A stretch of DNA of 64,000 nucleotides from Actinomyces sp. oral taxon 414 (GTDB taxonomy: Bacteria; Actinomycetota; Actinomycetes; Actinomycetales; Actinomycetaceae): NCBI RefSeq assembly GCF_001278845.1, contig NZ_CP012590.1, positions 992,001 to 1,056,000 of the forward strand, read 5' to 3'. Numbering within the stretch: the stretch's first letter is position 1; every line of letters begins with the position of its first letter. Shown one piece after another: positions 4,164 through 60,172 of the stretch. The position numbers were made by a program, and so were the translations under genes. The notes below the pieces were generated by a model. The model did not search any database, was not told the DNA's origin, and saw only the letters and a program-made list of their open reading frames with translations.

Positions 4164-4828
4164 GGTCGCCGCCCCCGCGGCCCGTCCGGGACGACGCCGG
4201 GCGCGGCCTCCTGCCAGGCGCTCACCGTGTAGGTCTGGACGACGACGTCGCGCCCCCAGTAGTCGGCGGGCAGGCCGGCCTTGCGGCGCAGGCGGGCCAG
4301 GAAGTCGGCCGGGTCGGGCAGTTGCTCCCACACCTGGGGCAGGAAGGTCGCGCGGTGCCCGGACGCGGACAGGACGACGCCGTCGACGCCGGGGCGCAGG
4401 CGGGCCAGGAGCTCGGCCTCGTCGGCCGCCGGCAGGACGGCCGGGGCGGACAGGACGGAGACCTCCACGACGACGTCGTCCAGTTCGCGCGCGGTCAGGG
4501 GCGGGAAACGGGGGTCGTGCAGGGCGGCGGCGACGGCGTTGGCCTCCACGTCCTCGCGCAGCGGGCGGCGGGCCACGAGGCTGCCGATGCAGCCGCGCAG
4601 GGCCCCGCCCGGCTCGCGCCCCGAGGTCAGGGTCACGAAGCTGGCCCCGGGCGCCTCCAGCCACTCGGCGGTCGGGCCGGCCGGAGCGGCGGGGGAGGAT
4701 GGACCGGCAGGCCCGGCCGGGGCGAGGCGGGCGTTAATGGCGCCGCGGGCCAGCGGCAGGAGGACCGGTCCGGCGTCGGCGGGTGGGACGGGGGCGGACG
4801 GAACGGGGGCGGACGGAACGGGGGTCAT
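4160..4828 (-). CDS. amrA: AmmeMemoRadiSam system protein A (AMMECR1 domain)
   Basis: The 222-residue product matches the AMMECR1 fold: SFVTLTSGREPGGALRGCIGS is followed by RPLREDVEANAVAAALHDPRFPPL, the usual core. The ATG at 4828 was chosen because it has an AAGGAG Shine-Dalgarno site nine bases upstream; a longer frame continues into the memo gene and is ignored. The N-terminus is a low-complexity repeat (PSAPVPSAPVPP). The 3' end overlaps the radical SAM start by four bases, and the memo stop lies 13 bases upstream, so the three genes form one operon. AMMECR1 proteins are thought to assist radical-SAM-dependent chemistry, but no enzymatic role is proven here. Confidence 0.9.
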   Translation of the reverse strand: MTPVPSAPVPSAPVPPADAGPVLLPLARGAINARLAPAGPAGPSSPAAPAGPTAEWLEAPGASFVTLTSGREPGGALRGCIGSLVARRPLREDVEANAVAAALHDPRFPPLTARELDDVVVEVSVLSAPAVLPAADEAELLARLRPGVDGVVLSASGHRATFLPQVWEQLPDPADFLARLRRKAGLPADYWGRDVVVQTYTVSAWQEAAPGVVPDGPRGRRP

Positions 4829-4841
4829 GGCGGGGGTCTCC

Positions 4842-5678
4842 TTACTCCTCGTAGAAGGCGACGGCGGCGTAGCCCACCACCCGGTCGGGGCTGCCAATGG
4901 TGTCGGCGGAGGTGGCCGACCCGAGCAGGCGCGGAACCAGGCCCCGCTCGCCGGCGGCCAGCAGGAGGGCGTTCACGCCGGTGGCGCCGCAGGCCTCCTC
5001 GTGGTCGATGTCGGCGCGCAGCGCCAGGATGCGCTCAATGGTCGCCTCGTCCACCCGCCGGGCCTCGGCCAGGGGCAGGTAGTGGGACAGGTCGGAGCTG
5101 ACCACCACCAGGGTGTCCGGGCGCCCCAGGAAGGGGCGGATCGCCTCGGCGGCCCGGTCGGGGGCGACCCAGCCCACGGCCAGGGGCACCACACTCGCCC
5201 CGGGCAGGACGGCGGTCAGGAAGGGGAGCTGGACCTCCAGAGAGTGCTCGGCGGCGTGGACGTCGGGGCGGGTGACCACCAGCCCGGCGGCGGCCAGCTC
5301 CTCGATCTGCGCGGGGACCTCCACCTCCACGGGGCCCAGCGGGGTGTCCATGGCCCGGCAGCCGGGCAGGGCCAGGGCGCGCACGCCCACCCGGTGGGCG
5401 GGCCCCAGCATGACCACCCGGCGGACCTGCCCACGCCGGGCCCCGGCCCGCGCCCAGGCCAGGGCCGCGGTGGGGCCGGAGTAGACGTAACCGGCGTGGG
5501 GGACGATGAGCGCCGCGGGGGCGGTGCCCCCGTCGTCCGCGCGCCGCGCCGCCGCCAGCATGGCCTCGACGTCGGCCCGCAGGCGGGCGGGCTCGGCGGG
5601 GTAGAACAGGCCCGCCACCGCCGGCGCACGCACCTGCTGGGACTGCTGGGATTGCTGGGACTGTGATGACTGGCTCAT
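4842..5678 (-). CDS. amrB: AmmeMemoRadiSam system protein B (Memo-like)
   Basis: This 278-residue protein contains the Memo family pattern: AVAGLFYPAEPARLRADVEAML at the start, LIVPHAGYVYSGPTAALA, VMLGPAHRVG, HAAEHSLEVQLPFL and VVSSDLSHYL. The conserved His and Cys residues of this class III extradiol-dioxygenase-like fold (PHAGY, AEHSLE, CGATG) are present. ATG 5678 is preceded by a GGGAG ribosome site. The N-terminus MSQSSQSQQSQQSQQ is a short Ser/Gln low-complexity tag before the conserved fold, unusual in a high-GC genome. It is the first gene of the Amr operon, divergent from hisC across 114 bases. Confidence 0.9.
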   Translation of the reverse strand: MSQSSQSQQSQQSQQVRAPAVAGLFYPAEPARLRADVEAMLAAARRADDGGTAPAALIVPHAGYVYSGPTAALAWARAGARRGQVRRVVMLGPAHRVGVRALALPGCRAMDTPLGPVEVEVPAQIEELAAAGLVVTRPDVHAAEHSLEVQLPFLTAVLPGASVVPLAVGWVAPDRAAEAIRPFLGRPDTLVVVSSDLSHYLPLAEARRVDEATIERILALRADIDHEEACGATGVNALLLAAGERGLVPRLLGSATSADTIGSPDRVVGYAAVAFYEE

Positions 5679-5792
5679 GAGGACCGCTCCCTGGATCGCC
5701 CGGCCCCTCCAGGCTACCCGCCCGGCCCGCCCCGCGGGGCCGATAACGCGGGCGCGGGACGGGCGGCGGGCGGGGACCGTAGACTCCCGTGC

Positions 5793-6944
5793 GTGAGCAC
5801 TCTTCCCCTGCGGCCCGGCCTCGAGGGCGAGGAGCCCTACGGGGCGCCCGAGCTCGACGTGCCCGTGCGGCTCAATGTCAATGAGAACCCTTACGCGCCC
5901 TCCCCGGGCGTCGTCGAGTCCATCGCCCGGGCCGCCGCCGGCGCCGCCGCCCGCCTCAACCGCTACCCCGACCGCGACTTCCCCGCCCTGCGCCGGGCCC
6001 TGGCCGACTACCTCGCCGCCGAGTCCGGGGTGAGGCCCGACTGGGAGGGCGTCTGGGCGGCCAACGGCTCCAACGAGGTCATGCTCCACGTGCTCCAGGC
6101 CTTCGGCGGCCCCGGGCGGGCCTGCCTGTCCTTCACACCCACGTACTCCATGTACCCCGAGTACGCGCGCGACACCCTCACCGACTACGTCACCGGGCCG
6201 CGCCGGGCGGACTTCACCCTCGATGCGGGCGCCGTCGCCGCCGCCATTGAGCGCGTGCGCCCCGCCGTGATCCTCCTGGCCAGCCCCAACAACCCCACCG
6301 GCACCGCCCTGCCCCTGGACGACGTGCGCACCGTCCTGGAGGCCGCCCGCGGCAACGGGCCGGCGGGCGCGGACGGCGCCGCCGCCGACGCCGTCGTCGT
6401 CATTGACGAGGCCTACGCCGAGTTCCGTCGTCCCGGCGTGCCCAGCGCCCTGGAGCTGCTCGCCGAGTCCGACGCCGCCGGGCCCCGCCACCCGCACCTG
6501 GCGGTGGCCCGCACCATGAGCAAGGCCTTCGGCATGGCCGGACTGCGCCTGGGCTACCTGGCCGCCGGGCGCGAGCTGGTCGACGCCCTGCGCGTCGTGC
6601 GCCTGCCCTACCACCTGTCCGCCCTCACGCAGGCGGCGGCCCTGGCGGCCCTGGGCCACCGCGAGGAGCTCATGGGGCAGGTCGCCTCGCTGCGCACCGA
6701 GCGCGACGCCCTGGTGACCTGGCTGCGCGGCCGGGGCCTGACCGCCCACGAGTCCGATGCCAACTTCGTGCTCTTCGGGCCCTTCGAGGACCGCGACGCC
6801 GTCTTCGCCGCCCTGCTCGAGCGCGGCGTCCTCATCCGCGTGGTGGGCCCGCGGGGGTACCTTCGGGTCAGTATCGGCACCCCCGACGAGATGGAGGCCT
6901 TCCGCTCCGCCCTCGTCGACGTCCTCAAGGAGACCCGAGCATGA
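5793..6944 (+). CDS. hisC: histidinol-phosphate aminotransferase
   Basis: A fold-type I PLP aminotransferase of 383 residues, of normal HisC length. The N-terminus has the substrate-site motif [15 protein letters not shown]. The PLP lysine is Lys244 in [15 protein letters not shown], the aspartate is in [10 protein letters not shown], and an Asn is in SPNNPTGT. The start is GTG at 5793 and its stop overlaps the hisB ATG as ATGA. It converts imidazole acetol phosphate and glutamate to histidinol phosphate. It leads the first half of the split histidine cluster (hisC-hisB-unknown). No His-rich leader peptide is visible in the short upstream gap. Confidence 0.95.
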
Positions 6945-7540
6945 GCCGCACCGCCCGCATTGAGCGCACCACCAGCGAGTCGTCCGTCCTCGTCGAGCTC
7001 GACCTGGACGGTACCGGCCGCACCGACGTGTCCACCACGGTCCCCTTCTACGACCACATGCTCACGGCGCTGGGCAAGCACTCGCTGATCGACCTGAGGG
7101 TGCGCGCCACCGGCGACACCGACATTGACGTTCACCACACCGTGGAGGACACCGCCATCTGCATCGGCGAGGCGCTGCGCGTCGCATTGGGCGACAAGCG
7201 CGGCATTGGACGCTTCGGCGACGCCCTCGTGCCGCTGGACGAGGCCCTGGCCCAGGCCGTCGTCGATGTGTCGGGGCGGCCCTACCTCGTCCACGACGGC
7301 GAGTCGGAGGCCTTCGTCCACCACCTCATCGGCGGCCACTTCACCGGCTCAATGGTCCGCCACGTCCTGGAGGCCATCGCCTACCACGCCGGGATCTGCC
7401 TGCACATGCGCGTCATCTGCGGCCGCGACCCGCACCACATCGCCGAGGCCGAGTTCAAGGCCCTCGCCCGCGCCCTGCGCGCCGCCGTCCAACCCGATCC
7501 CCGCGTGGACGGAATCCCCTCGACCAAGGGAGCCCTGTAA
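6941..7540 (+). CDS. hisB: imidazoleglycerol-phosphate dehydratase
   Basis: At 199 residues this is the monofunctional HisB dehydratase, without the phosphatase domain found in enterobacteria. It shows the manganese-binding histidine clusters expected for the family: [29 protein letters not shown] and [13 protein letters not shown]. It removes water from imidazole glycerol phosphate to give imidazole acetol phosphate, the substrate of the adjacent HisC. The gene overlaps hisC at its start (ATGA) and the next gene at its stop (TAATG), so translational coupling along the operon is likely. Confidence 0.96.
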
Positions 7541-8274
7541 TGCACGACGACAAGCACAATGACAAGCACGACGGCCGCGACCCGCTCGACGGCCCCCGCG
7601 ACGGCGACGACATCGACGCCGAATTCGCCGCCCTCGTCGAGGGCCTGGACTTATCCGCGCACGAGGGGGCCGGCCCCGCCGACCGCGCGGTCGCCCCCGG
7701 CGACGCGCCCCACAACTCCTACTCGGCGCCCGAGCCCGCCGGGACGGCGCCCAAGGCCATTAAGATCGCCGTCGTTTTGACCCCCCTGGCCAGTGCCAAC
7801 GCGCTGGCGGCCCTGTGCGCCATGAGCGACCTCGACTGCACGATCGTGCCGGCCCGCTCGGGCGCGATCGCCGTCAAGGAGTTCGTCTCCGCCCACGCCG
7901 AGTGGGACGTGGCCGAGCTCCTGGGCGGCGTCGAGACCGAGCCCGCCGAGGCGGCCGAGCTCGCCAAGGCCCTGTCGCGCCTCTCCCGCGGCGGCGTCGT
8001 CCTCATGACGGCGGACCTGGCCACCGACGTCGGCATCGAGTCGGGCCTGTCGGGCACAATCACGGCGCGCCGCTACGAGAACGGCGCCGCCGGCGAGGAG
8101 GCCAGCTCGGGCCTGCTGCTGTCCGCCGTCGACCAGGTCGTCGAGGACATTCTGCTGGGCATTGTCAGGGCCGACGACGTCGAGGGCGCCCTGCGCTCCG
8201 GCGAGGTCACCCCCGGCCGGGCCATGCGCTGGTTCGGGCGCGGCCTGCGCGGCCGGCGCGACGGGGGGGACTGA
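7540..8274 (+). CDS. unknown protein coupled to hisB
   Basis: I do not recognise a named domain. The 244-residue product opens with about 75 charged, probably disordered residues ([16 protein letters not shown]). A compact alpha/beta region follows: IKIAVVLTPLASANALAALCAMSDLDC, a segment VVLMTADLATDVGIE, and a C-terminal Arg/Gly-rich end. The start codon shares one base with the hisB stop (TAATG), so it is translated with the histidine enzymes. Genes of unknown function in this slot are seen in related actinobacterial his operons, which suggests a regulatory or accessory role; that is inference. A strong hairpin follows the stop. Confidence 0.7.
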   Translation: MHDDKHNDKHDGRDPLDGPRDGDDIDAEFAALVEGLDLSAHEGAGPADRAVAPGDAPHNSYSAPEPAGTAPKAIKIAVVLTPLASANALAALCAMSDLDCTIVPARSGAIAVKEFVSAHAEWDVAELLGGVETEPAEAAELAKALSRLSRGGVVLMTADLATDVGIESGLSGTITARRYENGAAGEEASSGLLLSAVDQVVEDILLGIVRADDVEGALRSGEVTPGRAMRWFGRGLRGRRDGGD

Positions 8275-8283
8275 ACTCCCGTG

Positions 8284-8314
8284 CCCGGGCGGGGCCGCGG
8301 CGGCCCCGCCCGGG
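8284..8314. terminator. bidirectional GC hairpin between convergent genes
   Basis: A perfect 14-bp stem (8284-8297 with 8301-8314) with a 3-nt loop lies midway between the convergent his-operon gene and the deacetylase gene. The symmetrical position suits a terminator used from both sides. Confidence 0.6.
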
Positions 8315-8327
8315 CCCCCGGGTGCGC

Positions 8328-9284
8328 TCACGCGGCGGCCAGGGCCTCGGAGAGCGTGAGGAAGGCGGTGCCCTCCGCCAGCATCGCCGGAATGGCCGCC
8401 AGGTAGCCGGCGCCCGTGTCGGCGCCGGGCTGGTTCATGTGGGAGATGACCACGTCGCCCGCCCCGGCCCGCCCGACCTCCGCCGCGACGGTGTCGGCGG
8501 GGAAGGTGGCGCCGCCGTCGCCATTGATGGAGAAGCCCGCGGCCCTCAGGCCCAGGCGGGCGGCAATGGCCAGGGCGACGTCGTCCCAGTGCGCGGTGCC
8601 GGGCCGGAAGAAGCGCGGCGCCCGGCCGGTGCGCTCGGTCAGGGCGATCTGGTTGCCCATAATCTCGTCCCACACCTCGCCCGCGTCGGCCGTGCCCGGG
8701 ATGCCGTAGGCGGACGCCCCGGTCACCGACAGCGGCAGGTGGGAGGTGCCGTGGTTGGCGATCTCCACCGTCGGGCAGGCGGCGAGCCGGTCGGTCAGGT
8801 CCGGGTTCGCCTCGACCCACCGGGAGTTGAGGAAGGCGGTGAAGGGGACCTGCCGGGAGATGAGCATGTCGACCAGGTCGGTGTCGACCCCCGAGCCCCC
8901 GGGGCCGCCGCAGGCGTCCAGCGTCAGGCACACGCCCGGAGCCGACGTGCCCGAGACAATGCCCTCGCCGACCATGTCGAACCAGGCGGGGGTGCGGCCG
9001 GCGAACTCGGCGACGATCTCCTCGCGCGAGGGGACCGCGGGCGTCGGGGAGGCCGACGGCGTCGGCGTCGGCGCCGGGGAGGCCGCGGACGCGGGGGAGG
9101 GGGAGGCGGCGGCCGCCTGAGCGGCGGCGGCCGAGGGGGCGGGCGTCGTCGGGGCCGCGGCGCGGGCCGAGGGAGCGGCGGGGGCGGCGGGCCCGGAGGC
9201 GCACGCGCCCAGGCCCGCCAGCGCCGCGGTGGTCAGCAGGCCCCGGACGACGTCGCGGCGCCGGGGCGATGGTGCGGGAAACAT
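8328..9284 (-). CDS. secreted polysaccharide deacetylase-family lipoprotein
   Basis: The N-terminus RRRDVVRGLLTTAALAGLGAC combines an Arg-rich, possibly twin-arginine signal with a lipobox (LGAC), so the protein is probably exported and lipid-anchored. About 80 low-complexity Ala/Pro/Ser residues follow as a wall-spanning linker. The catalytic part has NodB-type motifs: CLTLDACGG (motif 1, Asp present), NHGTSH (motif 2, His-x4-His type), and FRPGTAHWDD (motif 3). It should remove acetyl groups from a cell-wall or surface polymer. It separates hisB and hisH on the opposite strand, and nothing suggests a link with histidine synthesis. Length 318 residues. Confidence 0.8.
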   Translation of the reverse strand: MFPAPSPRRRDVVRGLLTTAALAGLGACASGPAAPAAPSARAAAPTTPAPSAAAAQAAAASPSPASAASPAPTPTPSASPTPAVPSREEIVAEFAGRTPAWFDMVGEGIVSGTSAPGVCLTLDACGGPGGSGVDTDLVDMLISRQVPFTAFLNSRWVEANPDLTDRLAACPTVEIANHGTSHLPLSVTGASAYGIPGTADAGEVWDEIMGNQIALTERTGRAPRFFRPGTAHWDDVALAIAARLGLRAAGFSINGDGGATFPADTVAAEVGRAGAGDVVISHMNQPGADTGAGYLAAIPAMLAEGTAFLTLSEALAAA

Positions 9285-9397
9285 GGGCCCGATCCTGCCA
9301 CCTCCCGCCCGCCCGGGCGCACGGCGCGAGGACCCCGCGCCCCGGGGCGGGCCCGTCCACCGGGCGCCGCGGGCCCCGCGCCCGGTAGGGTGGGCTC

Positions 9398-10045
9398 ATG
9401 AGCCAGCCCCGGGTCGTCGTCCTGTCCTACGGCAGCGGCAATGTGCGATCCGCCGTACGCGCCCTGGAACGCGTGGGTGCGCACGTCGAGCTGACCGCCG
9501 ATCCGGGCGACGTCGAGAGCGCCGACGGCCTCGTGGTCCCCGGCGTGGGCGCCTTCGCCTCCGTCATGGACCAGCTGCGCGCCGTCGGCGCCCCCCGGCT
9601 CATTGACCGCCGACTGGCGGGTGGACGCCCCGTACTGGGGATCTGCGTGGGGATGCAGGTGATGTTCGACTCCTCGACCGAGCACGCCGACCCCGGGCGG
9701 GACTCGCCGGGCCTGGGGCAGTGGCCCGGCACCGTCGAGCGGCTCCGGGCCGAGGTCGTCCCGCACATGGGATGGTCGCACGTCCGTCCGCCCGCCGGAA
9801 CCGTCCTGTTCGACGGCGTGGAGGACGAGCGCTTCTACTTCGTCCACTCCTACGCCGCCAAGACGGACCCCGCCGTCCTCCTGGGCCCGGGACCCGCCCG
9901 CCCGCCGCTGACCACCTGGGCCTCCCACGGAGAGGACTTCGTGGCCGCCGTCGAGAACGGGGCCCTGACCGCCACCCAGTTCCACCCCGAGAAGTCCGGT
10001 GACGCCGGAGCCCGCCTCCTGCACAACTGGCTCACCACTCTCTGA
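9398..10045 (+). CDS. hisH: imidazole glycerol phosphate synthase glutaminase subunit
   Basis: A class-I glutamine amidotransferase of 215 residues. The nucleophile is Cys83 in LGICVGMQ, and the His-Glu pair is H196/E198 in TQFHPEKSG. The oxyanion-strand motif VVPGVGAF is at about residue 47. It supplies ammonia to HisF, which is not in this window, so hisF must lie elsewhere. The gene is the first of hisH-priA-sseB. It starts 113 bases after the start of the divergent deacetylase gene, and the gap probably holds both promoters. Confidence 0.95.
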
Positions 10046-10098
10046 CCCGTCGCGGGTGCGCAGGCGCCCGCCGCCGACCCGAAGAAGGACCCGCCGCC

Positions 10099-10842
10099 AT
10101 GCTCACGCTCCTGCCCGCCGTTGACGTCGCCAACGGCAGGGCCGTCAGACTGCTCAAGGGACAAGCCGGAACCGAGACCGACTACGGCGACCCCCTGGAC
10201 GCGGCCCGCCACTGGGTCGAGGCCGGCGCCCAGTGGATCCACCTGGTCGACCTCGACGCCGCCTTCGGCCGCGGCTCCAATGCCGAGCTCCTCGCCCGCA
10301 TCGTCGGCGAGGTCGGCGTCAAAGTCGAGCTGTCCGGCGGCATCCGCGACGACGCCTCCCTGGACCGGGCCCTGGAGGCCGGTGCCGCCCGCATCAACCT
10401 CGGCACCGCCGCCCTGGAGGACCCCGAATGGACCGAGCGCGCCATCTCCGACCACGGCGACCTCATCGCCGTGAGCCTGGACGTGCGCGGTTCGACACTG
10501 GCCGCCCGCGGCTGGACCAGGGAGGGCGGCAACCTGTGGGAGACCCTGGAGCGCCTCAACGCCGCGGGCTGCTCGCGCTACGTCGTCACCGACGTCACGC
10601 GCGACGGAACCCTGACCGGCCCCAATATCGAGCTGCTGCGCACCGTCGCCTCGCTCAGCCCCGCCCCCGTCGTGGCCTCCGGCGGCATCGCCCGCCTGGA
10701 GGACATCGCCGCTCTGACCGCCCTGGTGCCCCAGGGCGTCGACTCCGCCATTATCGGCAAGGCCCTGTACAACGGCGACTTCACCCTCCAGCAGGCCCTG
10801 GCCGTCGCCGACGGCGCCCGGGTCGAGGACGTGCGTCCGTGA
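10099..10842 (+). CDS. priA: PriA-type phosphoribosyl isomerase (histidine/tryptophan)
   Basis: A (beta/alpha)8 isomerase of 247 residues. The two catalytic aspartates are Asp9 in LPAVDVANG and Asp169 in [10 protein letters not shown]; phosphate-binding loops are ELSGGIRDD and [12 protein letters not shown]. In actinobacteria this HisA homologue is normally bifunctional, acting on both ProFAR (histidine) and phosphoribosylanthranilate (tryptophan), because trpF is absent. The Arg-containing loop near residues 17-25 ([14 protein letters not shown]) is like PriA. It lies 53 bases after hisH and its stop overlaps the next start as GTGA. Confidence 0.92.
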
Positions 10843-11771
10843 GCGGGTCCGCCGCCGACCCCGCCCGCCCGGCGCGTACCCGGGCCGGGGCCGGGGGCGC
10901 GCCCGGCGGTCGTGAGGCGGGCGCAGCCGACGGCCCCGGGGCGGGCGCAGCCGACGGCCGCGAGCCCCTGCCCCTGACCGCCACCGACGCCCAGGTGCGG
11001 GCGGCCCTGGCGGCGCGGGCCAAGATGGAGCGGCTCCTGGCCGCCCCCACGCCCTTCGCCTCCGACGACGGCTCCGCCGACCCGGCGGTCACGGCGGCCC
11101 TGGAGGACACCGGATTGGAGCGCCACCTCCGCCTCGACCGCCTCTGGGCGGCGCTGACGGCCGGCCGCCTCATCGTCCCCGTCGCCGCCCACGCTCGCCC
11201 GGGCCGCGGCGCAGCCGGCCGGGCCGACGATTCCGGCCGGGCGGGCGCGCCCGCCCGCGAGCCCCGCGCCGAGGACCCCGCCCGGGACGCCGCCGCCCTC
11301 GCCGTCGACCTCCCCGACGGGCGCAGGGCCCTGCCCGTGTTCACCAGCGCGGCCGCCATGACCGCCTGGCGCTCCGACGTGCGGCCGGTGCCGGTCGACC
11401 CGCGCCGCGCCGCCCGGCTGGCCGTCGTGGAGACCGACCGGCTGTGGATCCTCGACCCGGGCACCCGCGACCTGCGCCTGCCGCGCCCCGCCGTCGTCGC
11501 CCTGGCCGAGGGGCGCGACTGGACGCCGTCCTGGCGCAATGAGCCGGTCCAGGCCGACATCGCCGCCCGGCTCGACGCCGTGGAGGGCGTGGTCGGCGTC
11601 GCCTTCGAGCCTGGCGCCGCCGTCGAGCTGCGGATCTTCATCCGCGTCGCCGCCTCCGGCGGGGCGGACGCCGCCGCGACCATGGAGGCCTGCCGGCGCG
11701 TCATGGCCGACCCGGCCTGGGCCGATCTCGTCGACGCCGTCGAGCTGTGCCCGCTGCCCGAACGTTCTTGA
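10839..11771 (+). CDS. SseB-family protein
   Basis: The frame is open far upstream, but GTG 10839 overlaps the priA stop (GTGA) and removes a leader that is only a shadow of priA. The 310-residue product starts with about 45 low-complexity Ala/Gly/Pro residues. A SseB-type domain follows ([24 protein letters not shown]), with a C-terminal SseB half ([21 protein letters not shown]). Such proteins often follow priA/hisA in actinobacteria. In enterobacteria SseB is linked to rhodanese and secretion functions, but the role in actinobacteria is not established. It is probably cytoplasmic because no signal peptide is visible. Confidence 0.8.
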
Positions 11772-12706
11772 ATCGCGCTCGCGGAACCGGACGTGCTGTG
11801 CGGCTCCCCGGAGTAGTCTGTGAGCGCCGTTACCCGTCTTTCCGCGCAGGGGCTGCCCGCCATGACATCCCGCTTCCCCAAGGTCCTGGCCGTCGTCGTG
11901 CTCGTGCTGGCAACGGCTCTGAGCGGCTGCGGCCCGTCCCCCGGCTCCGACGAGTCCACATCCACGCCCGGCGCGACTGCGGCGGCGGGCCTCGACCCGC
12001 GCTACGAGGAGGGGGCCTTCGGCGCCTGGAGCGCCTCCCTCCACACCGACGCGGGGGATGCGCAGGCGCTGTCGGGCCAGGACGCATCCTCCGGCGGGGG
12101 AGTCCAGGGCTGGGTCGATGCGGACGGAGGAACGGCGGTCTTCGCCTACTCGCGCGGGGACTACGCCTCGACCCTCACGGCGGTGGGCATGGCCGACGGC
12201 TCGTCCCTCTGGACCGTCGACCTCAAGGACCACCGCCGCGCCTCGGAGAGCGTCGAGGCCCCGCTGATACTGGGCGACTTCGGCTTCGGCGACGTGTACT
12301 GCCTGCCGATGAGCGTGCAGAACCACGTCGTGTGCGACAACGTCGGCCTGATCGACATGCGCGACGGCGCGGTCACCGAGATCCCCGAGACCACCGACTT
12401 CATGGGGGTCGGATCGGGCGAGGCGCAGGACGTCGTCGTCGGCAACCTCGGCGGGAACGCCGCTCCGGTGGGCGTGGCCGCGTGGAGCGTCGCGGGCGAG
12501 GAGCTGTGGCGCCGCGACGGCCTGATCCTGGACCGCTCCTCGGTGGGGAGCACCTGGGCAGTGGCCCGGAGCTCCGGGAGCCAGACCTCCTACGAAGTCA
12601 TCTCGCTGACCGACGGCGCCACCCTGTCGAGCTTCGAACTGCCCGACGGCGGGCTTGGCGCCAACTGGAGTGCTTGGCGTTCTTCGGACTGTGGTTTTTG
12701 GTGGTC

Positions 12707-13534
12707 TCAGGCTGCTTGTTTCCGGCTGTTCAGCTCGTGTTCGGCCTCGTTGGGGGTGCGGTACCCCAGTGCCGAGTGGAGTCGCGTATGATTATAGGTC
12801 AGTTCGATCCACGAGGCAACATCTTTGATGGCCTTTTCCCGTGTGGGGTACACCATGCGGTGGACGCGTTCGTTCTTCAGGGTGGCGTTGAAGGATTCCG
12901 CCCAGGCATTGTCCCAGCACACGCCGGTTCTCCCGACGGAGGGGAGGATCTTGTAGTTCTTCAGATGTTTGGCGAATTGCTGTGAGGTGTACTGACTGCC
13001 CCGGTCGGAGTGGAAGATCGTGACCTCCTCCTGGTGGGGGCAGCGGCGCACGGCCATATCGATGGCCTTGCAGATCAGGTCGGTCTTCATGTTGTCGGCC
13101 ATGGCGTAGCCGACGACTTTCTTGGTGCAGCAGTCCAGAACAGTGGCCAGATACACGAATCCGACCCACGTGCGGATGTAGGTGATGTCCCCGACCCATT
13201 TGAGCCCGGGGGCCTCGGCGGTGAAGTCCCTGTCCACCAGGTCGGGGCGGGTGTCGATGTCGTCGGCGGGGATGGTGGTGCGGACCTTCCGGCGCGGTTG
13301 CGCGGCTTTCAGACCCTTCTCCCGCATGATGGAGCGGACCGTGTCGGGGGACACGACGGCGCCCTTGCGCTTCAGAGCGGCGGTGATGCGCCGGTACCCG
13401 TAGGTCATGTCGGAGGCCTTGAACTCGGACTCGACCAACAGGGCCAGCTTCCTCCTTCTGACCTTCGTGGCGGCCTCGGGCCGGCTCAGCCAGTTGTAGT
13501 AGCCGGACTTCGACACTCCGACCAGTTCGCACAT
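12707..13534 (-). CDS. IS3 transposase OrfB (DDE integrase domain)
   Basis: The product of 275 residues has an HTH_21-like N-terminus (MCELVGVSKSGYYNWLSRPE) and a full rve-type DDE catalytic core. The Asp residues are in WVGDITYI and FHSDRGSQYTS, and the Glu is in NAWAESFNATLKNE. The conserved start of the family (IRREEGNYPVAS) is encoded immediately upstream of ATG 13534, between the orfA stop and this ATG. The reading frame as given therefore lacks a normal start for it. OrfB is in the same phase as OrfA, whereas a -1 phase is expected; see the separate finding on a possible 1-nt insertion. Confidence 0.88.
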   Translation of the reverse strand: MCELVGVSKSGYYNWLSRPEAATKVRRRKLALLVESEFKASDMTYGYRRITAALKRKGAVVSPDTVRSIMREKGLKAAQPRRKVRTTIPADDIDTRPDLVDRDFTAEAPGLKWVGDITYIRTWVGFVYLATVLDCCTKKVVGYAMADNMKTDLICKAIDMAVRRCPHQEEVTIFHSDRGSQYTSQQFAKHLKNYKILPSVGRTGVCWDNAWAESFNATLKNERVHRMVYPTREKAIKDVASWIELTYNHTRLHSALGYRTPNEAEHELNSRKQAA

Positions 13535-13588
13535 GGAGGCGACGGGGTAATTGCCTTCTTCGCGGCGGATGAGCCCTGTGGCGATCGC

Positions 13589-13873
13589 TCACCGACGTTC
13601 TCTCGCGAAGAAGGCCGCCGCTTTTTTCAAGAACTCGTTCTCCTGGCGCAACTCGCGGTTCTCCGCCCTCAGCCTGGCGATCTCGGCCGACTCCGCGGCG
13701 GCCTCGGGGTCCTGGTCCTCGGCGTGCTTCTTCTTGTACTTGGCGACCCAGCCCCCCACCGTCTGCGGAACCAGATCGTAGGAGGCGGCCACGGACGCGA
13801 TCGTGCGCTCCTTCTCCAGGATCTCGCGAACGACCTGCTCCTTGAACTCATCGGGGTACTTCGTTCTCGTCAT
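13589..13873 (-). CDS. IS3 transposase OrfA (helix-turn-helix and leucine zipper)
   Basis: The 94-residue protein starts MTRTKYPDEFKEQVV and contains the IS3 OrfA HTH (TIASVAASYDLVPQTVGGWV). A coiled coil follows (IARLRAENRELRQENEFLKKA), as in all IS3 first frames. An A6G tract (minus strand, 13627-13621) near the 3' end resembles the slippery sequence used for OrfAB frameshifting, but its phase (TTG AAA AAA GCG) is not the canonical A-AAA-AAG arrangement. It ends with TGA at 13589-13591. Confidence 0.9.
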   Translation of the reverse strand: MTRTKYPDEFKEQVVREILEKERTIASVAASYDLVPQTVGGWVAKYKKKHAEDQDPEAAAESAEIARLRAENRELRQENEFLKKAAAFFARERR

Positions 13874-18036: not shown

Positions 18037-18100
18037 GCCGCTGAGCCGGGCGGGCGCCGAGATTTCCGGGAGGGACGGTTGCGGCCGGTGCTGGTCGGTC

Positions 18101-21100
18101 TCAGGAGTCGGCGCGAAGCAGTGGCGGCAGCGGGCCATTGATTTCTGCGGGAAGCCGTGTCATTTGCCCGTCCACCATGACCTCGTAGCCGAGCCATCGC
18201 CAGGCATTGGGGCTCGCGCCGATAATCTCTAGGGTCGTGGCATCGCGTACAAGAAGGGCGCCTTTGGGCAGCAGATCGATGCGAATGCCAAAAGGTCGGC
18301 CGGTGGCGGCGTCCCACATGTGGACGCCACCACGTCCTGTGGTGAGGATGTGGGTTCCGTCGGGGCTCCAGGCGGCCGAGAAAGTCGAGTTGGTGGTGAG
18401 GGTCTGGGTGGTTTCGCCGGTGGCGGCGTCCCACATGTGGACGCCATGGGGGCCTGTGGTGAGGATGCGGGTTCCGTCGGGGCTCCAGGCGGCCGAGTTC
18501 GTCCAGTCGGTGTCGGTGGTGAGGGTCTGGGTGGTTTCGCCGGTGGCGGTGTCCCACGTGCGGACGCCGTTGTCGTCTGTGGTGAGAAAGCGGGTTCCGT
18601 CGGGGCTCCAGGCGGCCGAGAAAGTCGAGTTGGTGGTGAGGGTCTGGGTGGTTTCGCCGGTGGTGGCGTCCCACATGTGGACGCCATGGGGGCCTGTGGT
18701 GAGGATGTGGGTTCCGTCGGGGCTCCAGGCGGCCGAGAAAGTCAAGTTGGTGGTGAGGGTCTGGGTGGTTTCGCCGGTGGTGGCGTCCCACATGTGGACG
18801 CCAAGGAGGCCTGTGGTGAGGATGTGGGTTCCGTCGGGGCTCCAGGCGGCCGAGAAAGTCGAGTTGGTGGTGAGGGTCTGGGTGGTTTCGCCGGTAGTGG
18901 CGTCCCACGTGCGGACGCCGTTGTCGTCTGTGGTGAGGATGCGGGTTCCGTCGGGGCTCCAGGCGGCCGAGAAAGTCGAGTTGGTGGTGAGGGTCTGGGT
19001 GGTTTCGCCGGTGGTGGCGTCCCACATGTGGACGCCAAGGAGGCCTGTGGTGAGGATGTGGGTTCCGTCGGGGCTCCAGGCGGCCGAGTTCGTCCAGTCG
19101 GTGTCGGTGGTGAGGGTCTGGGTGGTTTCGCCGGTGGCGGTGTCCCACGTGCGGACGCCACCACGTCCTGTGGTGAGGATGTGGGTTCCGTCGGGGCTCC
19201 AGGCGGCCGAGTTCGTCCAGTCGGTGTCGGTGGTGAGGGTCTGGGTGGTTCGGCCGGTGGTGGCGTCCCACATGTGGACGCCAAGGAGGCCTGTGGTGAG
19301 GATGTGGGTTCCGTCGGGGCTCCAGGCGGCCGAGAAAGTCGAGTTGGTGGTGAGGGTCTGGGTGGTTTCGCCGGTAGTGGCGTCCCACGTGCGGACGCCG
19401 TTGTCGTCTGTGGTGAGGATGCGGGTTCCGTCGGGGCTCCAGGCGGCCGAGAAAGTCGAGTTGGTGGTGAGGGTCTGGGTGGTTTCGCCGGTGGTGGCGT
19501 CCCACATGTGGACGCCACCACGTCCTGTGGTGAGGATGCGGGTTCCGTCGGGGCTCCAGGCGGCCGAGTTCGTCCAGTCGGTGTCGGTGGTGAGGGTCTG
19601 GGTGGTTTCGCCGGTGGCGGTGTCCCACGTGCGGACGCCACCACGTCCTGTGGTGAGGATGTGGGTTCCGTCGGGGCTCCAGGCGGCCGAGAAAGTCGAG
19701 TTGGTGGTGAGGGTCTGGGTGGTTTCGCCGGTGGTGGCGTTCCACATGTGGACGCCACCACGTCCTGTGGTGAGGATGCGGGTTCCGTCGGGGCTCCAGG
19801 CGGCCGAGTTCGTCCAGTCGGTGTCGGTGGTGAGGGTCTGGGTGGTTTCGCCGGTAGTGGCGTCCCACGTGCGGACGCCGTTGTCGTCTGTGGTGAGAAA
19901 GCGGGTTCCGTCGGGGCTCCAAGCGGCACAATTAACCATGTTCAGACCCGGATAGGTTGTGAGTATCCGTGGAGTATTCCCTACAGGAGCAGGAGCCGGT
20001 GCAATGAGTACCCCATCACTTTCGATGATCGGATGACTGAACAGAAGCTGGGTCCGATGGAATGTGGCTCCCCTGATGTCGATATCTGTGAGATTGCACT
20101 GACGAAATATCGTTCCGGATAGGTTGCAACTTTCCAGGGACGTCTTAATGAGTGAGCATTTTGTAAGGCGAGCTCGCAGAAACGAGACGCCAGCTGCATC
20201 GGTGCGATCAAGACGAACGCGGGTGAGCACCGCATCGTCGAGACGTGCTTCGGTGAATGGAACTCCAGTGAGATCGAGAGGTTCTGCCTCCGTCCCCAAT
20301 TCCCAGTGACGCAGATCAGTGCTTGACAGATTAAGGGCTTGTGTTGAAATGATGGGAAATTTCTTAGATCCGGCGAGAAGAACATAGGCGAGCACCGCCG
20401 CGCGAGCCCGCGGGCTTCCTGAGTGCGCAACCTCGGCGAGTCGTTTGAGAGCTCGTTGACAATCGACATCGTTGAGTCCATCGAGGATCTCCCCAAAAAA
20501 ATTAAGGGACTCTTGGCTCGGACGGGGAATATTCCATGCGGTAAGAGACTCGCCCTCGTCATCGGCGAGGAGGGCGTCTGCCATTGATCTGGCGAGAAAG
20601 TACTCCAGGAGTGAGGAGTGAGCGAAGGCGAAGTCGTTCCCGCGCCGGGACAGGAAGGTGGCGGTGCGAAAGTCCTGTTTCCATTGAGTTGGCATGCGCG
20701 AAGAGTAATCGAGTTCCATCTCCGGGTGCTTGTTGAGGAAGACCAGGAGCCATTTCTCCATCCACTCGGCCGACCATGTGCGTCGTCCCGACACCCAGAC
20801 CTCGCGAGCGAGTCGGGACATGAGTCGGCACTTGTGCTCAGGGAGAAGCGTGTGCTTACCATCATCTCTTTCCAGCCAACGGTTGACGAAGCGCTCGTAC
20901 AAATCCACCGAGCGGAAACGATGTCCGTCCGCCAGAGCCGCTTCCACATCGGGAAGCACCTCACGGATCATGGCGAGAAGGACGGGCTGCTGGGCGAGGG
21001 AGCGCAGGTCGTGGACGGAACGGATGGTATCAAGTAGACGGTGAGGGTCGAATCCCGGGACATTGCGCTCCAAGTACTCCAAGATCTGATCCTCATTGAA

Positions 21101-22678
21101 GGGCAGCATGGTGAGTACCAAATAGTCCTCGCTGCGGACGCGCTCCCGATTCTGTCCCGAGAAGAAGGCGAATTCTTCTCTGACGGAACGGAAATACTGA
21201 CTCCGGCAGGTGAGCATGAGTCGGATGCCGGAGTTATTTTCAGGAGCAGCGAGGGTGAGAGTTTGAAGCAGTCCGCGCGTTAGTCTCTGTCCTGCGCCCT
21301 CTTCTAGGTGGACGAGAACCTCATCCAGGCCGTCGAATACGACAAGGCACCTCTCGGCGGAGATAATTTCAAGTGCACGGTCCACATCGATTGGAGTCGG
21401 TGAGCTCTGACGGAGCATCTGTTCCAGCATGGAACGTAGACCGAAATCGGGCAGTCGGTCGACATCCAGATCTCGCAAATCGAAGTAGATGGGCAGAGGA
21501 ACGTCCTGCCCGTCCTTACGTCGTGCAAGGAGCTCACGGGTGAGAAGAATGGATGTTGTCGTCTTCCCCGTACCGAGATCACCCAGGAGAGCGCACAGAC
21601 CAGGGGCCTTCTCTTCTCGATTGTTGGCCCATTCAATAAGGCGGTCCATGGCGGGGGTCGCATTGCGCGATACTATGGCGGTCCGTGCGAACTCAGTCGA
21701 ATCGCCCCGATCGGCGGCCTCCTCGAATGATCCCACCTGGGCATGCGAGGACACGAAGGCCATTTCATTGCTGAGGCGGGCATGTTCGAAAAGCCTTTGG
21801 GCGAATGAGTCCGGACGCACGATTCCGCCAGGATCGTCGATTTCATTGCACAAGATCCGGTGAATGTGCACTGCCGCAATCTGGGCAATTTCGCTGCGCG
21901 AACTTCCCCGAGTTTCTTGGACAGTACGCGGTGCAACTATGTCGTGCCCATCGAACGGGATAGGTAAGGCACCTTCAGGCGGGTCCTTGAGTTTGACAAT
22001 TACCGGGTGGGGAAAGTGTGAGGCAACCCGATCGCGCTCCGCGGGTTCATTGAGGTAGCCCGGACTGAGGAGGACGACTGCAATATTCGCTTCTCTCACC
22101 CAGCGATCGAGGGTTTTCTCTCTGTCCTCCCCCGTGGGGATGTCGTCGGAGCGTGTTACGGTCAGATCCGCCTTCTCTCTCAGAAGGACGCGCATCTGCT
22201 GTTCTATCAATTCAGCCATATCATTGGCCAGCTTGCCGTCATTCTGGCTGAAACTGATATGGATTCTCACGTCGGGCGCGTAGGGATCGTTCTCGACGAC
22301 ATAGGCCTCGACCGTCTCGTCCCGGGAGTGGCGGCCGACCTGGGCCTCGGAGCGCTCAGATAGCTCCTGGGCGAGGGGGTCGGTCCCGGTGAACCAGACG
22401 CCGTCCTTCTTCCGTCCATCGAAGGCGAACTTCAGTTCATCCCCGGAGACCTTATTGAAACGACTTTTGAACTGACGCAGAGCTCCGCGCGGGTCTTTGC
22501 CTTCGAAGAGTGCAAGCACACTGGCGGTCGATGCCGTGCCATCAGATCCGATCATATCGGCGATGGCATACGCCTGTCTGGATTGTGCTCCTGTCAGACC
22601 AGTGATCTCGTCAAGGCCGCGCCGCACGGCCGCTGCTGACAGTGGTCGTCGGCGGGGCGTGGAGGATGCAGTGCTCAC
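18101..22678 (-). CDS. TIR-NACHT-pentapeptide-WD40 STAND receptor (NLR-like, predicted immune protein)
   Basis: The 1525-residue protein starts at GTG 22678, overlapping the TIR gene stop (GTGA). The order is: an unrecognised helical N-domain (1-125); a TIR-like domain (about 136-255; RIHISFSQNDGKLANDMAELI, AVVLLSPGYLNEP); and a NACHT NTPase with Walker A GDLGTGKTTTS (about 361-371) and Walker B CLVVFDGLDEV (about 440-450). Winged-helix/helical regions, a short pentapeptide-repeat stretch (about 785-860) and 14 WD40 repeats (about 905-1463) follow. This is the plan of bacterial NLR-related antiphage receptors: the C-terminal sensor detects a phage product, NACHT oligomerises, and TIR cleaves NAD+. 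That role is inferred from family knowledge. G+C is visibly lower than in neighbours over 20-22.7 kb, suggesting transfer. Confidence 0.88.
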   Translation of the reverse strand: MSTASSTPRRRPLSAAAVRRGLDEITGLTGAQSRQAYAIADMIGSDGTASTASVLALFEGKDPRGALRQFKSRFNKVSGDELKFAFDGRKKDGVWFTGTDPLAQELSERSEAQVGRHSRDETVEAYVVENDPYAPDVRIHISFSQNDGKLANDMAELIEQQMRVLLREKADLTVTRSDDIPTGEDREKTLDRWVREANIAVVLLSPGYLNEPAERDRVASHFPHPVIVKLKDPPEGALPIPFDGHDIVAPRTVQETRGSSRSEIAQIAAVHIHRILCNEIDDPGGIVRPDSFAQRLFEHARLSNEMAFVSSHAQVGSFEEAADRGDSTEFARTAIVSRNATPAMDRLIEWANNREEKAPGLCALLGDLGTGKTTTSILLTRELLARRKDGQDVPLPIYFDLRDLDVDRLPDFGLRSMLEQMLRQSSPTPIDVDRALEIISAERCLVVFDGLDEVLVHLEEGAGQRLTRGLLQTLTLAAPENNSGIRLMLTCRSQYFRSVREEFAFFSGQNRERVRSEDYLVLTMLPFNEDQILEYLERNVPGFDPHRLLDTIRSVHDLRSLAQQPVLLAMIREVLPDVEAALADGHRFRSVDLYERFVNRWLERDDGKHTLLPEHKCRLMSRLAREVWVSGRRTWSAEWMEKWLLVFLNKHPEMELDYSSRMPTQWKQDFRTATFLSRRGNDFAFAHSSLLEYFLARSMADALLADDEGESLTAWNIPRPSQESLNFFGEILDGLNDVDCQRALKRLAEVAHSGSPRARAAVLAYVLLAGSKKFPIISTQALNLSSTDLRHWELGTEAEPLDLTGVPFTEARLDDAVLTRVRLDRTDAAGVSFLRARLTKCSLIKTSLESCNLSGTIFRQCNLTDIDIRGATFHRTQLLFSHPIIESDGVLIAPAPAPVGNTPRILTTYPGLNMVNCAAWSPDGTRFLTTDDNGVRTWDATTGETTQTLTTDTDWTNSAAWSPDGTRILTTGRGGVHMWNATTGETTQTLTTNSTFSAAWSPDGTHILTTGRGGVRTWDTATGETTQTLTTDTDWTNSAAWSPDGTRILTTGRGGVHMWDATTGETTQTLTTNSTFSAAWSPDGTRILTTDDNGVRTWDATTGETTQTLTTNSTFSAAWSPDGTHILTTGLLGVHMWDATTGRTTQTLTTDTDWTNSAAWSPDGTHILTTGRGGVRTWDTATGETTQTLTTDTDWTNSAAWSPDGTHILTTGLLGVHMWDATTGETTQTLTTNSTFSAAWSPDGTRILTTDDNGVRTWDATTGETTQTLTTNSTFSAAWSPDGTHILTTGLLGVHMWDATTGETTQTLTTNLTFSAAWSPDGTHILTTGPHGVHMWDATTGETTQTLTTNSTFSAAWSPDGTRFLTTDDNGVRTWDTATGETTQTLTTDTDWTNSAAWSPDGTRILTTGPHGVHMWDAATGETTQTLTTNSTFSAAWSPDGTHILTTGRGGVHMWDAATGRPFGIRIDLLPKGALLVRDATTLEIIGASPNAWRWLGYEVMVDGQMTRLPAEINGPLPPLLRADS
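18290..19963 (-). repeat. 14 tandem near-identical WD40 repeats (117- and 123-bp units)
   Basis: The coding units repeat the frame AAWSPDGT-x-LTT-xx-GV-xx-W-x-TGETTQTLTT. Units come in two lengths, 39 and 41 residues, depending on whether the linker reads NSTFS or DTDWTNS. Fourteen units fit two seven-bladed propellers. Bases are almost invariant outside a few codons. The variable sites are R/H after SPDGT; the loop RG, DN, LL or PH before GV; and RT or HM before W. Such homogenised arrays usually evolve by recombination between units and may be mis-assembled from short reads. Confidence 0.95.
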
Positions 22679-23166
22679 CGGTACCCACCGCGCTTGTCCA
22701 CACGTCGGATGATGGTATTGACGAACTCATTGGCGAAGCGATCTTTTTGAGCGTCTCTTCTGAGATCCCCATAGACTCTGGGTTTGCCGTTCGATCCGCG
22801 GAGGAAGAAAATTTGATGTTTGTCTATACCGTGGAACTCGTAGTCGCCATTGAGGGGGACATTCTTGAGCATGAGCGGCAGGATCGGCTTGCGCGGAGTC
22901 TTACCGATACCGGGGATCTCGTGGTCGCGGATGAAGTCGGATGCAAGAAATGAGTGACTCACGAGTTGGACGACATAGTCTCCCTCGTCGAACCTCGAGT
23001 AGATCTCCTCCTCCCACTCCTCGCCGGAAATAATGAGAGAGTCTTCCCACCAGTCGAAGTTGTGTTTTTTGACGTTCTTCAGGCGGGGAGTGAGGCGGGA
23101 GACCAGATCCTCCTTGAGGGCCTGGTCCGCGTGCGCCCAGGACAGGAAGAGCTTGACGGTGGACAT
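22675..23166 (-). CDS. stand-alone TIR-domain protein
   Basis: A complete 163-residue TIR domain. Beta-A with KLFLSWAHADQAL is first, and a BB-loop region with WWEDSLIISGEEWEEEI follows. Next come the alpha-C/beta-D strand DYVVQLVSHSFLASDF and a Glu in FIRDHEI, at the position of the NADase catalytic Glu in many TIRs; the assignment is by pattern only. The C-terminus ends RRVDKRGGYR. It has no other domain. The stop overlaps the GTG of the TIR-NACHT gene, so the two are co-translated and probably act together, for instance as effector plus sensor. The start ATG is preceded by AGGAGGATC. Upstream lies an AT-richer gap with tgacaagatcgtgacaagta that could hold the promoter. Confidence 0.9.
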   Translation of the reverse strand: MSTVKLFLSWAHADQALKEDLVSRLTPRLKNVKKHNFDWWEDSLIISGEEWEEEIYSRFDEGDYVVQLVSHSFLASDFIRDHEIPGIGKTPRKPILPLMLKNVPLNGDYEFHGIDKHQIFFLRGSNGKPRVYGDLRRDAQKDRFANEFVNTIIRRVDKRGGYR

Positions 23167-23266
23167 GGCGGATCCTCCTGGTCGACATCATGACAAGATC
23201 GTGACAAGTATGTCACGGTCGTCTGGGGATGTCAACACCTGCGCCCTTGAGGAGTGCGCTGGTCGC

Positions 23267-24316
23267 TCATCGGGACTCACCGCCCGAGAGCACTCCGAGC
23301 GTCAGCTCCGAGGCCCGCCGGGGCGTCACCCGCTGTTCGTTCCTGGCCCGGGCGCAGGCCATGATCCATGCGCGGGGCAGGCCAGGAGCTCGGAGGTCCT
23401 CCTCCGGCCTGGCACCCACGACCCGGTAGAAGTCGTCGTCGACGGGGTTCAGGTACGCGTCCGCCCGCTTCAGGTCGACGCCCGCCTGCTCGGCGGTGGC
23501 GATCAGGAGCGACCAGGAGACGCGGTAGTCCGCCGCCAACTCGATGAGCTCGTCCCTGGAGGGATTGCGCAGCCGCCCTACGACGGCCTGGGGAAGGAGC
23601 AGCTCGGCGGCGAAGGCGTCGATCCTCTCCTCCGCCTCGCGCGGGACCGCGTAGTGGCCCGAGGCCTCGTAGGCGTCCCCGGCGACGTGGTGCCCGATCT
23701 CATGGGCCGCGGCGGCGCGGCGCCGGCCCGGTTCCAGGCCCTCGCCGATCACGGCCACGCCCAGCCCGGGCTGTGGGGTCAGGGACAGGCCGTCGATCCG
23801 GGCCGTCGTCGTACGGCACCACAGTCCGAGCTCGGCGGCCACATCCGTCATCGCCCCCAGGGGGGCGTCCCCGACGTCGAGGAATCCCCGGACCTCGCGG
23901 GCCAGGGCCCGTGCCTGTTCGGGGGAGTCGACGCCTCCGCCGCCCATGCCCAGGTCGACCGGCTCCAGCAACCCGTCATCGCGGAGTCGGCACAGGTCCC
24001 GCCACGCGCGGTCGAGGTCGAGGCCGGCCCTGAAGATCTCGCGCTCCTCGGGCCTGGAATCCTCGTCCACGGGGGGTCGGGCGGCGCGCACATCCGCGAG
24101 CGGGAGCAGGATGAGGTCGCCCAGGGTGACGCGGAGGGCCTCGGCGATCCTCGCGAGCTCCAGGGCGGAGACCTTCCGCTCGCCCGACTCGATGCGCGAG
24201 AGCGCGGTCCGCTCCAGGTGGCAGCTCCGGGCCAGCGAGGTCTGGTCGAGCCCGGCCCCCAGTCGCACCTGCCGGATCCGCGCACCGAGTTCGCTGAAGT
24301 TCTTGACCGCATCCAT
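23267..24316 (-). CDS. XRE-family regulator fused to ImmA/IrrE-type metallopeptidase
   Basis: The 349-residue protein starts at ATG 24316 (MDAVKNFSELGARIRQVR). The helix-turn-helix spans residues 8-65 (LDQTSLARSCHLERTALSRIESGERK). The C-terminal half is a DUF955/ImmA-like domain with the zinc motif HEIGHH near 204-209. The downstream acidic helix EERIDAFAAELLLP would supply the third ligand. Such proteins cleave or inactivate repressors, or act as stress/SOS-like regulators on mobile DNA. Here it adjoins the TIR-NACHT pair on the same strand but 100 bases upstream of the TIR start. It could control that locus. A perfect inverted repeat overlaps its start codon and suggests autoregulation. Confidence 0.85.
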   Translation of the reverse strand: MDAVKNFSELGARIRQVRLGAGLDQTSLARSCHLERTALSRIESGERKVSALELARIAEALRVTLGDLILLPLADVRAARPPVDEDSRPEEREIFRAGLDLDRAWRDLCRLRDDGLLEPVDLGMGGGGVDSPEQARALAREVRGFLDVGDAPLGAMTDVAAELGLWCRTTTARIDGLSLTPQPGLGVAVIGEGLEPGRRRAAAAHEIGHHVAGDAYEASGHYAVPREAEERIDAFAAELLLPQAVVGRLRNPSRDELIELAADYRVSWSLLIATAEQAGVDLKRADAYLNPVDDDFYRVVGARPEEDLRAPGLPRAWIMACARARNEQRVTPRRASELTLGVLSGGESR

Positions 24317-24335
24317 GTGTGCGATTTTCACACAT
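24315..24335. promoter_or_regulatory. inverted repeat overlapping the XRE/ImmA start codon
   Basis: ATGTGTG-N7-CACACAT is a perfect 7-bp dyad with an AT-rich centre (cgatttt). The left arm includes the first bases of the XRE gene start codon on the minus strand. This is the position and size expected for an autoregulatory XRE operator. Nothing convincing as a gene is seen in 24336-24618. Confidence 0.55.
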
Positions 24336-24618
24336 TCTGTGGCGGAATTCCACGACTGCGTCTTTCTCACCAGGAACGGTGACTTGTGGCCGGGATCGGC
24401 ATGATGATGCGGAAGAGTTGGTGCAAGGTGGGTTGGTGTCCGCGAAGGTCTCACCGTCCCGCGCCGCCCTCGATCCCTCCGAGCGCCCGCCGCCGCGCCG
24501 CCGGCGTCTCAGCACTCGGGCACACCGTGGGCGCGGGCCGCGCCGTGATGCTAGGGTCCCATGGCAGCGGTGAGGATCGTCTCCCGCGCAGGATCGACTC
24601 AGGAGGAATGCAGTGCGC

Positions 24619-36697: not shown

Positions 36698-36774
36698 TGG
36701 TACCCCCTCAGGGACTCGAACCCTGGACACCCTGATTAAGAGTCAGGTGCTCTGACCAACTGAGCTAAGGAGGC
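36698..36774 (-). tRNA. tRNA-Lys (anticodon CTT), copy 1
   Basis: Minus-strand acceptor gcctcct/agggggt, D-arm agctcagttggtcagagc, anticodon arm cctga-ctcttaa-tcagg (CTT), T-arm ccagggttcgagtccctg. CCA is encoded. Confidence 0.95.
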
Positions 36775-36814
36775 ATTGGTCATGCGGGCGGCTCTCCGCG
36801 GGGATCCCCGTCCG

Positions 36815-60128: not shown

Positions 60129-60172
60129 CCGGCCGCGCCCGTGTGGCGCGGCCCGGGTGCGCGCACCCGCCG

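Follow-up and report, generated by a model that had tools for sequence, protein, structure and literature searches.

Can a bacterial receptor change what it recognises by reshuffling nearly identical blades of a propeller? The question is raised by a locus in Actinomyces sp. oral taxon 414, within a stretch of 64,000 nucleotides (contig NZ_CP012590.1, positions 992,001 to 1,056,000; hereafter the window) that encodes a receptor with NNH6, TIR, NACHT, pentapeptide-repeat and WD40 segments next to a small TIR gene (Table 1). At the level of sequence, this is a TIR-NACHT receptor with 14 blades and a small co-encoded TIR protein, and the four cassettes at one of its loops are reused, in a different order, in a second array. 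We lean, guardedly, towards reading the two genes as an immune module in which an NLR-like TIR sensor would carry two seven-bladed propellers diversified by recombination between units. The component parts are already known from bacteria and fungi; a bacterial receptor whose loop cassettes are shared between arrays and reordered is new as far as we searched the open-licence literature. Published work is cited here by PMC number.

The initial annotation described 14 near-identical WD40 units, and they were recovered with the reading frame intact across the whole array. Tandem Repeats Finder (TRF) scored the array at 2239–2389 for periods of 117, 240 and 357, and nucleotide identity between pairs of units averages 90% (range 78–100). 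Within a 27-residue core, amino acid identity between units has a mean of 81% (range 63–100) and reaches at least 80% in 43 of 91 pairs. Eleven distinct units are present among the 13 of full length, with unit 3 identical to unit 7 and unit 5 identical to unit 9.

The three sites at which these units had been said to vary are real. The residue following SPDGT is R in seven units and H in seven, the pair preceding W is RT in six and HM in eight, and the pair preceding GV is RG in five, DN in four, LL in three and PH in two. The list was incomplete, having missed columns 10 (I/F), 22 (D/N, once), 23 (A/T), 24 (T/A) and 27 (E/R) together with the loop that leads from strand d to the next strand a (d–a loop), which reads NSTFS (NLTFS once) in units of 39 residues and DTDWTNS in those of 41. 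Twelve of 34 codons vary, some synonymously, and 20 of the 22 invariant codons have a synonymous alternative. Codons 14–16 form a cassette at the turn between strands b and c (b–c cassette) in which eight of nine bases vary, a clustering reached in 7 of 20,000 trials in which the 20 variable columns were placed at random. What this clustering marks is homogenised repeats that keep old differences at one turn, and it is not proof of selection.

Relatives of the receptor were taken from 419 matches as the 120 that scored best against a query of 14 blades. The sole other complete 14-unit array in the close homologs among them belongs to P0003, a protein of 1513 residues encoded on a metagenome contig of 13,197 bp, whose NACHT and TIR segments are 95% and 82% identical to those of the window. 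The b–c cassettes of P0003 are exactly the window's four (DDN, GRG, GLL and GPH), with no others. At 10 core columns the two arrays have at least two residues in common, and none of the 27 core columns is fixed for different residues. Same-index units do not match above permutation, either over all units (299 vs. a permuted mean of 292.9, p 0.21) or over the inner twelve (254 vs. 253.7, p 0.50). The window and P0003 therefore share b–c parts and not their order; the initial annotation had held that an identical repeat order in all strains would speak against re-editing, and in this one other complete array the order differs.

Near-identical tandem repeats of fungal arrays have been misassembled from short reads (PMC12222747), and an artefact of the same kind might underlie the number or order of repeats in the window, as the initial annotation had foreseen. 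We regard this as very improbable, given that the genome is a single contig of 3,836,419 bp, that one frame runs through all 14 units and that 11 of 13 units can be told apart. Fourteen is also the number of units in P0003 and the mode of blade number (12 proteins) among 38 tail-bearing proteins of at least 1350 residues, two of which have 15 blades and none more, in a sample from the best 120 matches that favours 14-blade relatives. The 15 other close homologs have 0–5 units each; fungal arrays cannot be rebuilt from Illumina assemblies (PMC12222747), so the short array lengths of homologs were not used. Cassette counts across 16 proteins, both full arrays included and P0014 (no complete unit) omitted, were DDN 8, GPH 7, GRG 6 and GLL 4, and the pooled-unit count took in the 73 of 74 units that are of full length.

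Recombination within the array, which the initial annotation had suggested, has left visible traces in the form of a 265-bp exact copy (Table 1), the two pairs of identical units and recombinant unit types. In a four-gamete test all four combinations were present in 10 of 21 pairs of variable features, indicating that sub-unit pieces were exchanged or that crossovers fell at several phases. Sequence could also be written into the array from outside it. In other bacteria, sensors linked to NACHT are diversified by diversity-generating retroelements (DGRs); these sensors and the bNACHT antiphage proteins resemble the Actinomyces receptor in joining a NACHT core to a C-terminal sensor in bacterial conflict systems (PMC10907252). 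The Actinomyces NACHT domain also has the intact Walker motifs that characterise bNACHT systems. That a DGR or silent donor cassettes wrote the variable codons here is nonetheless scarcely credible. The single RVT_1 match in the genome is a fusion of reverse transcriptase and Cas1 (RT-Cas1), on which ground a DGR was rejected, no separate search having been made for a template repeat. A source in silent donor cassettes at other sites of the genome was likewise rejected, as all nine matches of a two-unit DNA query lie inside the array.

Bacteria are already known to have highly repetitive arrays of WD40 units linked to STAND/TIR genes (WRAP; PMC9218822). Npun_R6612 of Nostoc punctiforme (2YMU) likewise combines 14 near-identical C-terminal WD40 blades with a STAND ATPase and a coupled TIR-bearing gene (PMC9218822, PMC6805158), and Trp-to-Arg replacements at a single recurrent position make up six of the changes in its array (PMC6805158). 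The Actinomyces array might be a recently amplified propeller of this type, grown from one or two blades, with ordinary mutations, not selected for recognition, as its differences and with turnover and decay as its fate. Agreeing with such an origin are the high repeat identity, a ratio of non-synonymous to synonymous polymorphism (pN/pS) near 1, the 22 invariant codons, the A. qiguomingii ortholog, whose frame changes and which an ISL3 transposase interrupts, and the many disrupted arrays reported for the WRAP branch (PMC9218822). We nevertheless judge it unlikely. Units with different cassettes differ at 2–8 of the 9 cassette bases, compared with a mean of 4.3 of 93 bases elsewhere (62 pairs), which is not a pattern of scattered single mutations. 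Moreover, WRAP relatives have private fixed positions, read as independent amplification (PMC9218822), and the sharing of most core polymorphisms with P0003, with no core column differently fixed, is the opposite of this. Whereas a WRAP-type array would have blades set apart only by a few private, non-synonymous point mutations, the Actinomyces array has recurring multi-base cassettes, synonymous differences and variants in common with P0003. The partners differ as well, that of Nostoc being itself a STAND ATPase, while in Actinomyces a TIR domain resides in the receptor and the partner is a small TIR-only protein of 163 residues.

The best PDB sequence match of the array is 2YMU, aligned blade by blade (E 1.4e-49), and in that structure 14 blades make two seven-bladed propellers (PMC6805158). 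By this alignment the fourteen units would fit the two seven-bladed propellers proposed in the initial annotation. Sixteen of the 120 listed relatives made up the alignment for the first structure model. In the alignment-based model, which is weak, DSSP places columns 15–16 in a turn of two residues that links strand b to strand c, and the unit spacer in the loop from d to the next a. A single-sequence model, in which strands c and d merged into long strands, was not used. The modelling that had been proposed as a check put the variable sites at the b–c turn and the d–a loop, with low confidence in both models. Two closed propellers of seven blades each would probably result, their variable loops all exposed on the same face.

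The initial annotation had drawn a parallel with fungal NLRs. The HNWD proteins of Podospora anserina (HET-D, HET-E and HET-R) also join an N-terminal effector to NACHT and high-identity WD40 repeats, which undergo concerted evolution and are predicted to form two seven-bladed propellers (PMC1805685, PMC12222747). Positive selection in Podospora is reported at the d–a loop and b–c turn, at the top of the propeller (PMC1805685), and according to our weak model these hypervariable elements occupy the same topological places in the Actinomyces array. An array of this kind is not unprecedented in bacteria (PMC9218822, PMC5587647). Highly repetitive prokaryotic WD40 proteins were shown by Hu et al. 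2017 to be diverse at predicted interaction hotspots (PMC5587647), so hotspot variability alone is not new. Their proteins share high internal identity and hotspot diversity with ours; their work differs in being a catalogue, the excerpted passages of which make no comparison between alleles. Differences from HNWD are also evident. The fungal proteins carry a HET domain, which is not among the Pfam families listed for the receptor (25 of 26 listed), where NNH6 and TIR_2 occur instead. They form a multi-locus family that swaps repeats, whereas a two-unit DNA query finds one array only in the Actinomyces genome. Positive selection is reported for HNWD, compared with an overall pN/pS of 1.07 here. 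HNWD-type receptors are marked by WD40 repeats more than 80% identical; the Actinomyces units show 81% mean core amino acid identity (43/91 pairs at 80% or more) and 90% mean nucleotide identity.

If the array is indeed a sensor, its variable propeller face would bind an invader molecule, most likely of phage origin, with a phage protein as the likeliest guess for the ligand. Binding would free the NACHT domain to oligomerise, after which the receptor's own TIR domain and the partner TIR protein would act, presumably by consuming NAD+. This scheme of sensing, oligomerising and executing is modelled by analogy on APAF-1 and other STAND receptors (PMC7159879). A small standing library of loop variants would be reshuffled as near-identical units undergo unequal crossover or gene conversion, and specificity would thereby change through recombination and not through point mutation alone. 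The propellers might instead serve to tell self from non-self (kin or strain) by recognising some polymorphic protein that another strain makes, as in HET-D and HET-E, with which the receptor has in common its architectural logic and hypervariable loop positions (PMC1805685, PMC12222747). Such a role appears improbable to us because bacteria do not fuse their cells in the way of fungi. It is further disfavoured by the bacterial NACHT proteins tested so far, which to our knowledge act against phage.

More distant relatives offer a broader view of the variable columns. Of 104 listed relatives with 42–51% identity, mean identity between units is at least 0.70 in 24, nine of which have eight units or more. 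Twenty-three of the 104 passed a fixed-frame filter requiring at least six units, which left out proteins whose b–c turn is longer by one residue (e.g., P0063 and P0024). In these 23 one-frame relatives variability is highest at columns 15 and 16, as it is in the window and P0003, but their ranking of all columns by variability shows no significant correlation with that of P0003 (Spearman coefficient 0.37, p 0.06).

Several results weigh against a sensor diversified by recombination. The corresponding rank correlation between the 23 relatives and the window is not significant (0.19, p 0.35). The second full array is a single metagenome protein, known from protein sequence alone; columns 1, 2 and 13 are variable in it but constant across the window's units, and the reverse holds for column 22. 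NSTFS is the only d–a loop common to both arrays, P0003 having DRTNS, DTNWTNS, NWIES and NWTRS in addition. The short arrays of the 15 close homologs may be collapsed assemblies, and the chimera-like identity pattern of some close homologs may reflect mixed-strain assembly. Both AlphaFold2 models are weak (65.8/0.45 and 62.7/0.64), and the receptor matched none of the families in PADLOC 2023. Selection for variability, for which the initial annotation had proposed a site-wise codon test, was not shown: overall pN/pS is 1.07 (0.0852/0.0795) over 34 codons and 13 units, unit 14 (without spacer) having been left out, and diversifying selection is thus not demonstrated. Third codon positions account for 6 of the 20 variable columns (p 0.48), and strong positive selection as an established fact was rejected on both counts.

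We also put forward, tentatively and with more doubt than the sensor itself, that 14 blade slots, a constrained set, are filled from a small population-wide cassette library which is kept across diverged alleles and dealt in different orders by recombination, fungal HNWD proteins having converged independently on the same two loops. Combinatorial reading of cassettes would, if true, amount to repertoire-like logic at the level of the population. Should several strains confirm a recombining sensor, here would be an immune receptor of bacteria whose specificity changes as a small set of blade modules is reordered, with neither a retroelement nor a donor gene family. Whether concerted evolution of repeats with a few variable loop residues yields recognition, so far argued from fungi, would then become testable in bacteria, where arrays should be simple to exchange in experiments, the locus being short and the cassettes shared.

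The TIR-NACHT identity given in the initial annotation agrees with Pfam, where NACHT exceeds its cut-off, the TIR_2-like domain of the receptor falls below its own and the separate TIR gene lies above it (Table 1). Pfam WD40 matches begin at residue 908. Walker A Lys372 and Walker B Asp449 of NACHT and Glu214 of the TIR_2-like domain are identical in 59 of 59 proteins of the residue-conservation alignment, drawn from the 120 listed relatives, and we take Glu214, by analogy with TIR NADases, to be the candidate catalytic glutamate. Counting the window's receptor, 121 proteins were examined for the AWRWLG-type tail motif, and 119 have it. The GTG start of the receptor overlaps the partner gene by 4 nt. 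The partner protein matches the PADLOC model of ThsB, the TIR protein of Thoeris (E 1.4e-11), over positions 3–79 of 319 only. Among neighbouring proteins scanned by Pfam there was no ThsA effector, the whole genome not having been searched for it, and an EruA match of the receptor in NCBIfam was weak (21.5 bits, cut-off 1000).

Further searches added little to the family. An array-directed search (best 120 of 1247 WD40 matches) returned 115 new proteins, none with the window's cassettes in context; P0130 alone among them has the tail motif. A tail-directed search gave six proteins, all previously found, and a pattern scan of genome contigs gave 17 matches and no confirmed relative. At the level of the order, 8 of 396 genomes matched at E <=1e-40, the seven besides the genome's own showing 32–37% identity. 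In two close homologs, P0017 and P0039, the NNH6, NACHT and WD40 tail are kept, whereas the TIR segment of 202 residues has only 63 that can be aligned, which may point to an exchange of effectors at the N-terminus.

Of 49 genomes in the genus, two carry the receptor, and the TIR gene is present in these two and in no other. The second is A. qiguomingii (G025), in which the two genes lie side by side and convergent to the same methylase gene, with diverged WD40 units in a broken frame and an ISL3-type transposase interrupting the receptor. G005, the nearest genome by its SpoU neighbour (94% identical), lacks the interval 18051–23265 and has ~540 bp of other DNA in its place. In G028 a SLOG-domain gene occupies the same gap, and the other genomes examined have unrelated genes or nothing there (ten proteins scanned). 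This uneven occurrence, together with gap contents that differ across the genus, describes a patchy, defence-like module in a variable spot. G+C content is 57.6% in the 5′ part of the receptor and 67.2% over the array, against 71.9% for the window, a contrast in keeping with horizontal arrival. The adjoining XRE-IrrE gene (window 23267–24454), which encodes a helix-turn-helix and an M78 peptidase, resembles the RmrA and capP/capH models of PADLOC; it was rejected as a member of the system and is a neighbour only, since G005 has it without the module.

Table 1 Features of the receptor locus (window positions unless another contig is named)
Feature	Position	Strand	Extent	Basis or remark
Two-gene module between SpoU methylase gene and XRE-IrrE gene	18051..23265	.		
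NNH6-TIR-NACHT-pentapeptide-WD40 receptor gene	18101..22678	(-)	1525 aa, GTG start	Open reading frame and translation, Pfam
C-terminal tail, conserved	18104..18295	(-)	residues 1462-1525	AWRWLG-type motif
WD40 array, 14 units (39 or 41 aa each)	18296..19927	(-)	residues 918-1461	AAWSPDG units; 14 blades also by blade hidden Markov model
265-bp exact repeat, second copy	18773..19037	(-)		
265-bp exact repeat, first copy	19253..19517	(-)		Lag to second copy 480 bp (four units), offset 410
Pentapeptide-repeat region	20045..20239	(-)	residues 814-878	Pfam
NACHT NTPase	21062..21595	(-)	residues 362-539	Pfam 37.9 bits, cut-off 26.7
TIR_2-like domain	22025..22264	(-)	residues 139-218	Pfam 24.1 bits, below cut-off 28
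NNH6 NACHT N-terminal helical domain	22337..22636	(-)	residues 15-114	Pfam 43.8 bits, cut-off 27
Partner gene, TIR-only protein	22675..23166	(-)	163 aa	Pfam TIR_2 33.8 bits, above cut-off 28
A. qiguomingii syntenic locus: SLOG (LD_cluster2)-TIR_2-like, TIR, TIR, NACHT-WD40	L008 (G025:C1:2340000-2356000), 3977-13598			

Other features were noted in passing. The RT-Cas1 fusion (G000:C1:2871630-2872250, L004) has a Cas2 frame just downstream and is presumably a module for CRISPR adaptation that, by family precedent, can acquire from RNA. Inverted or tandem pairs are often formed by a motif of 18 bp, CTCGCGGGTTAMGTGACG, as at window 41417–41473 (two mismatches each) and L007 ~11115–11191. Exact copies number 53 in G000, 115 in G005 and 0 in three other Actinomyces genomes, the reversed control giving 0 in all five. 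The motif is an interspersed element resembling repetitive extragenic palindromic (REP) sequences, some copies of which lie in the spot where G005 is without the module. A short palindromic tandem repeat, AGCTCGCATTGTGCGAGCTG, is present in 5.4 copies at window 57943–58051 (TRF). Genes for tRNA-Glu (CTC) are tandemly duplicated with a period of 117 bp at window 60056–60246, and two adjacent tRNA-Lys genes lie at 36698–36891.
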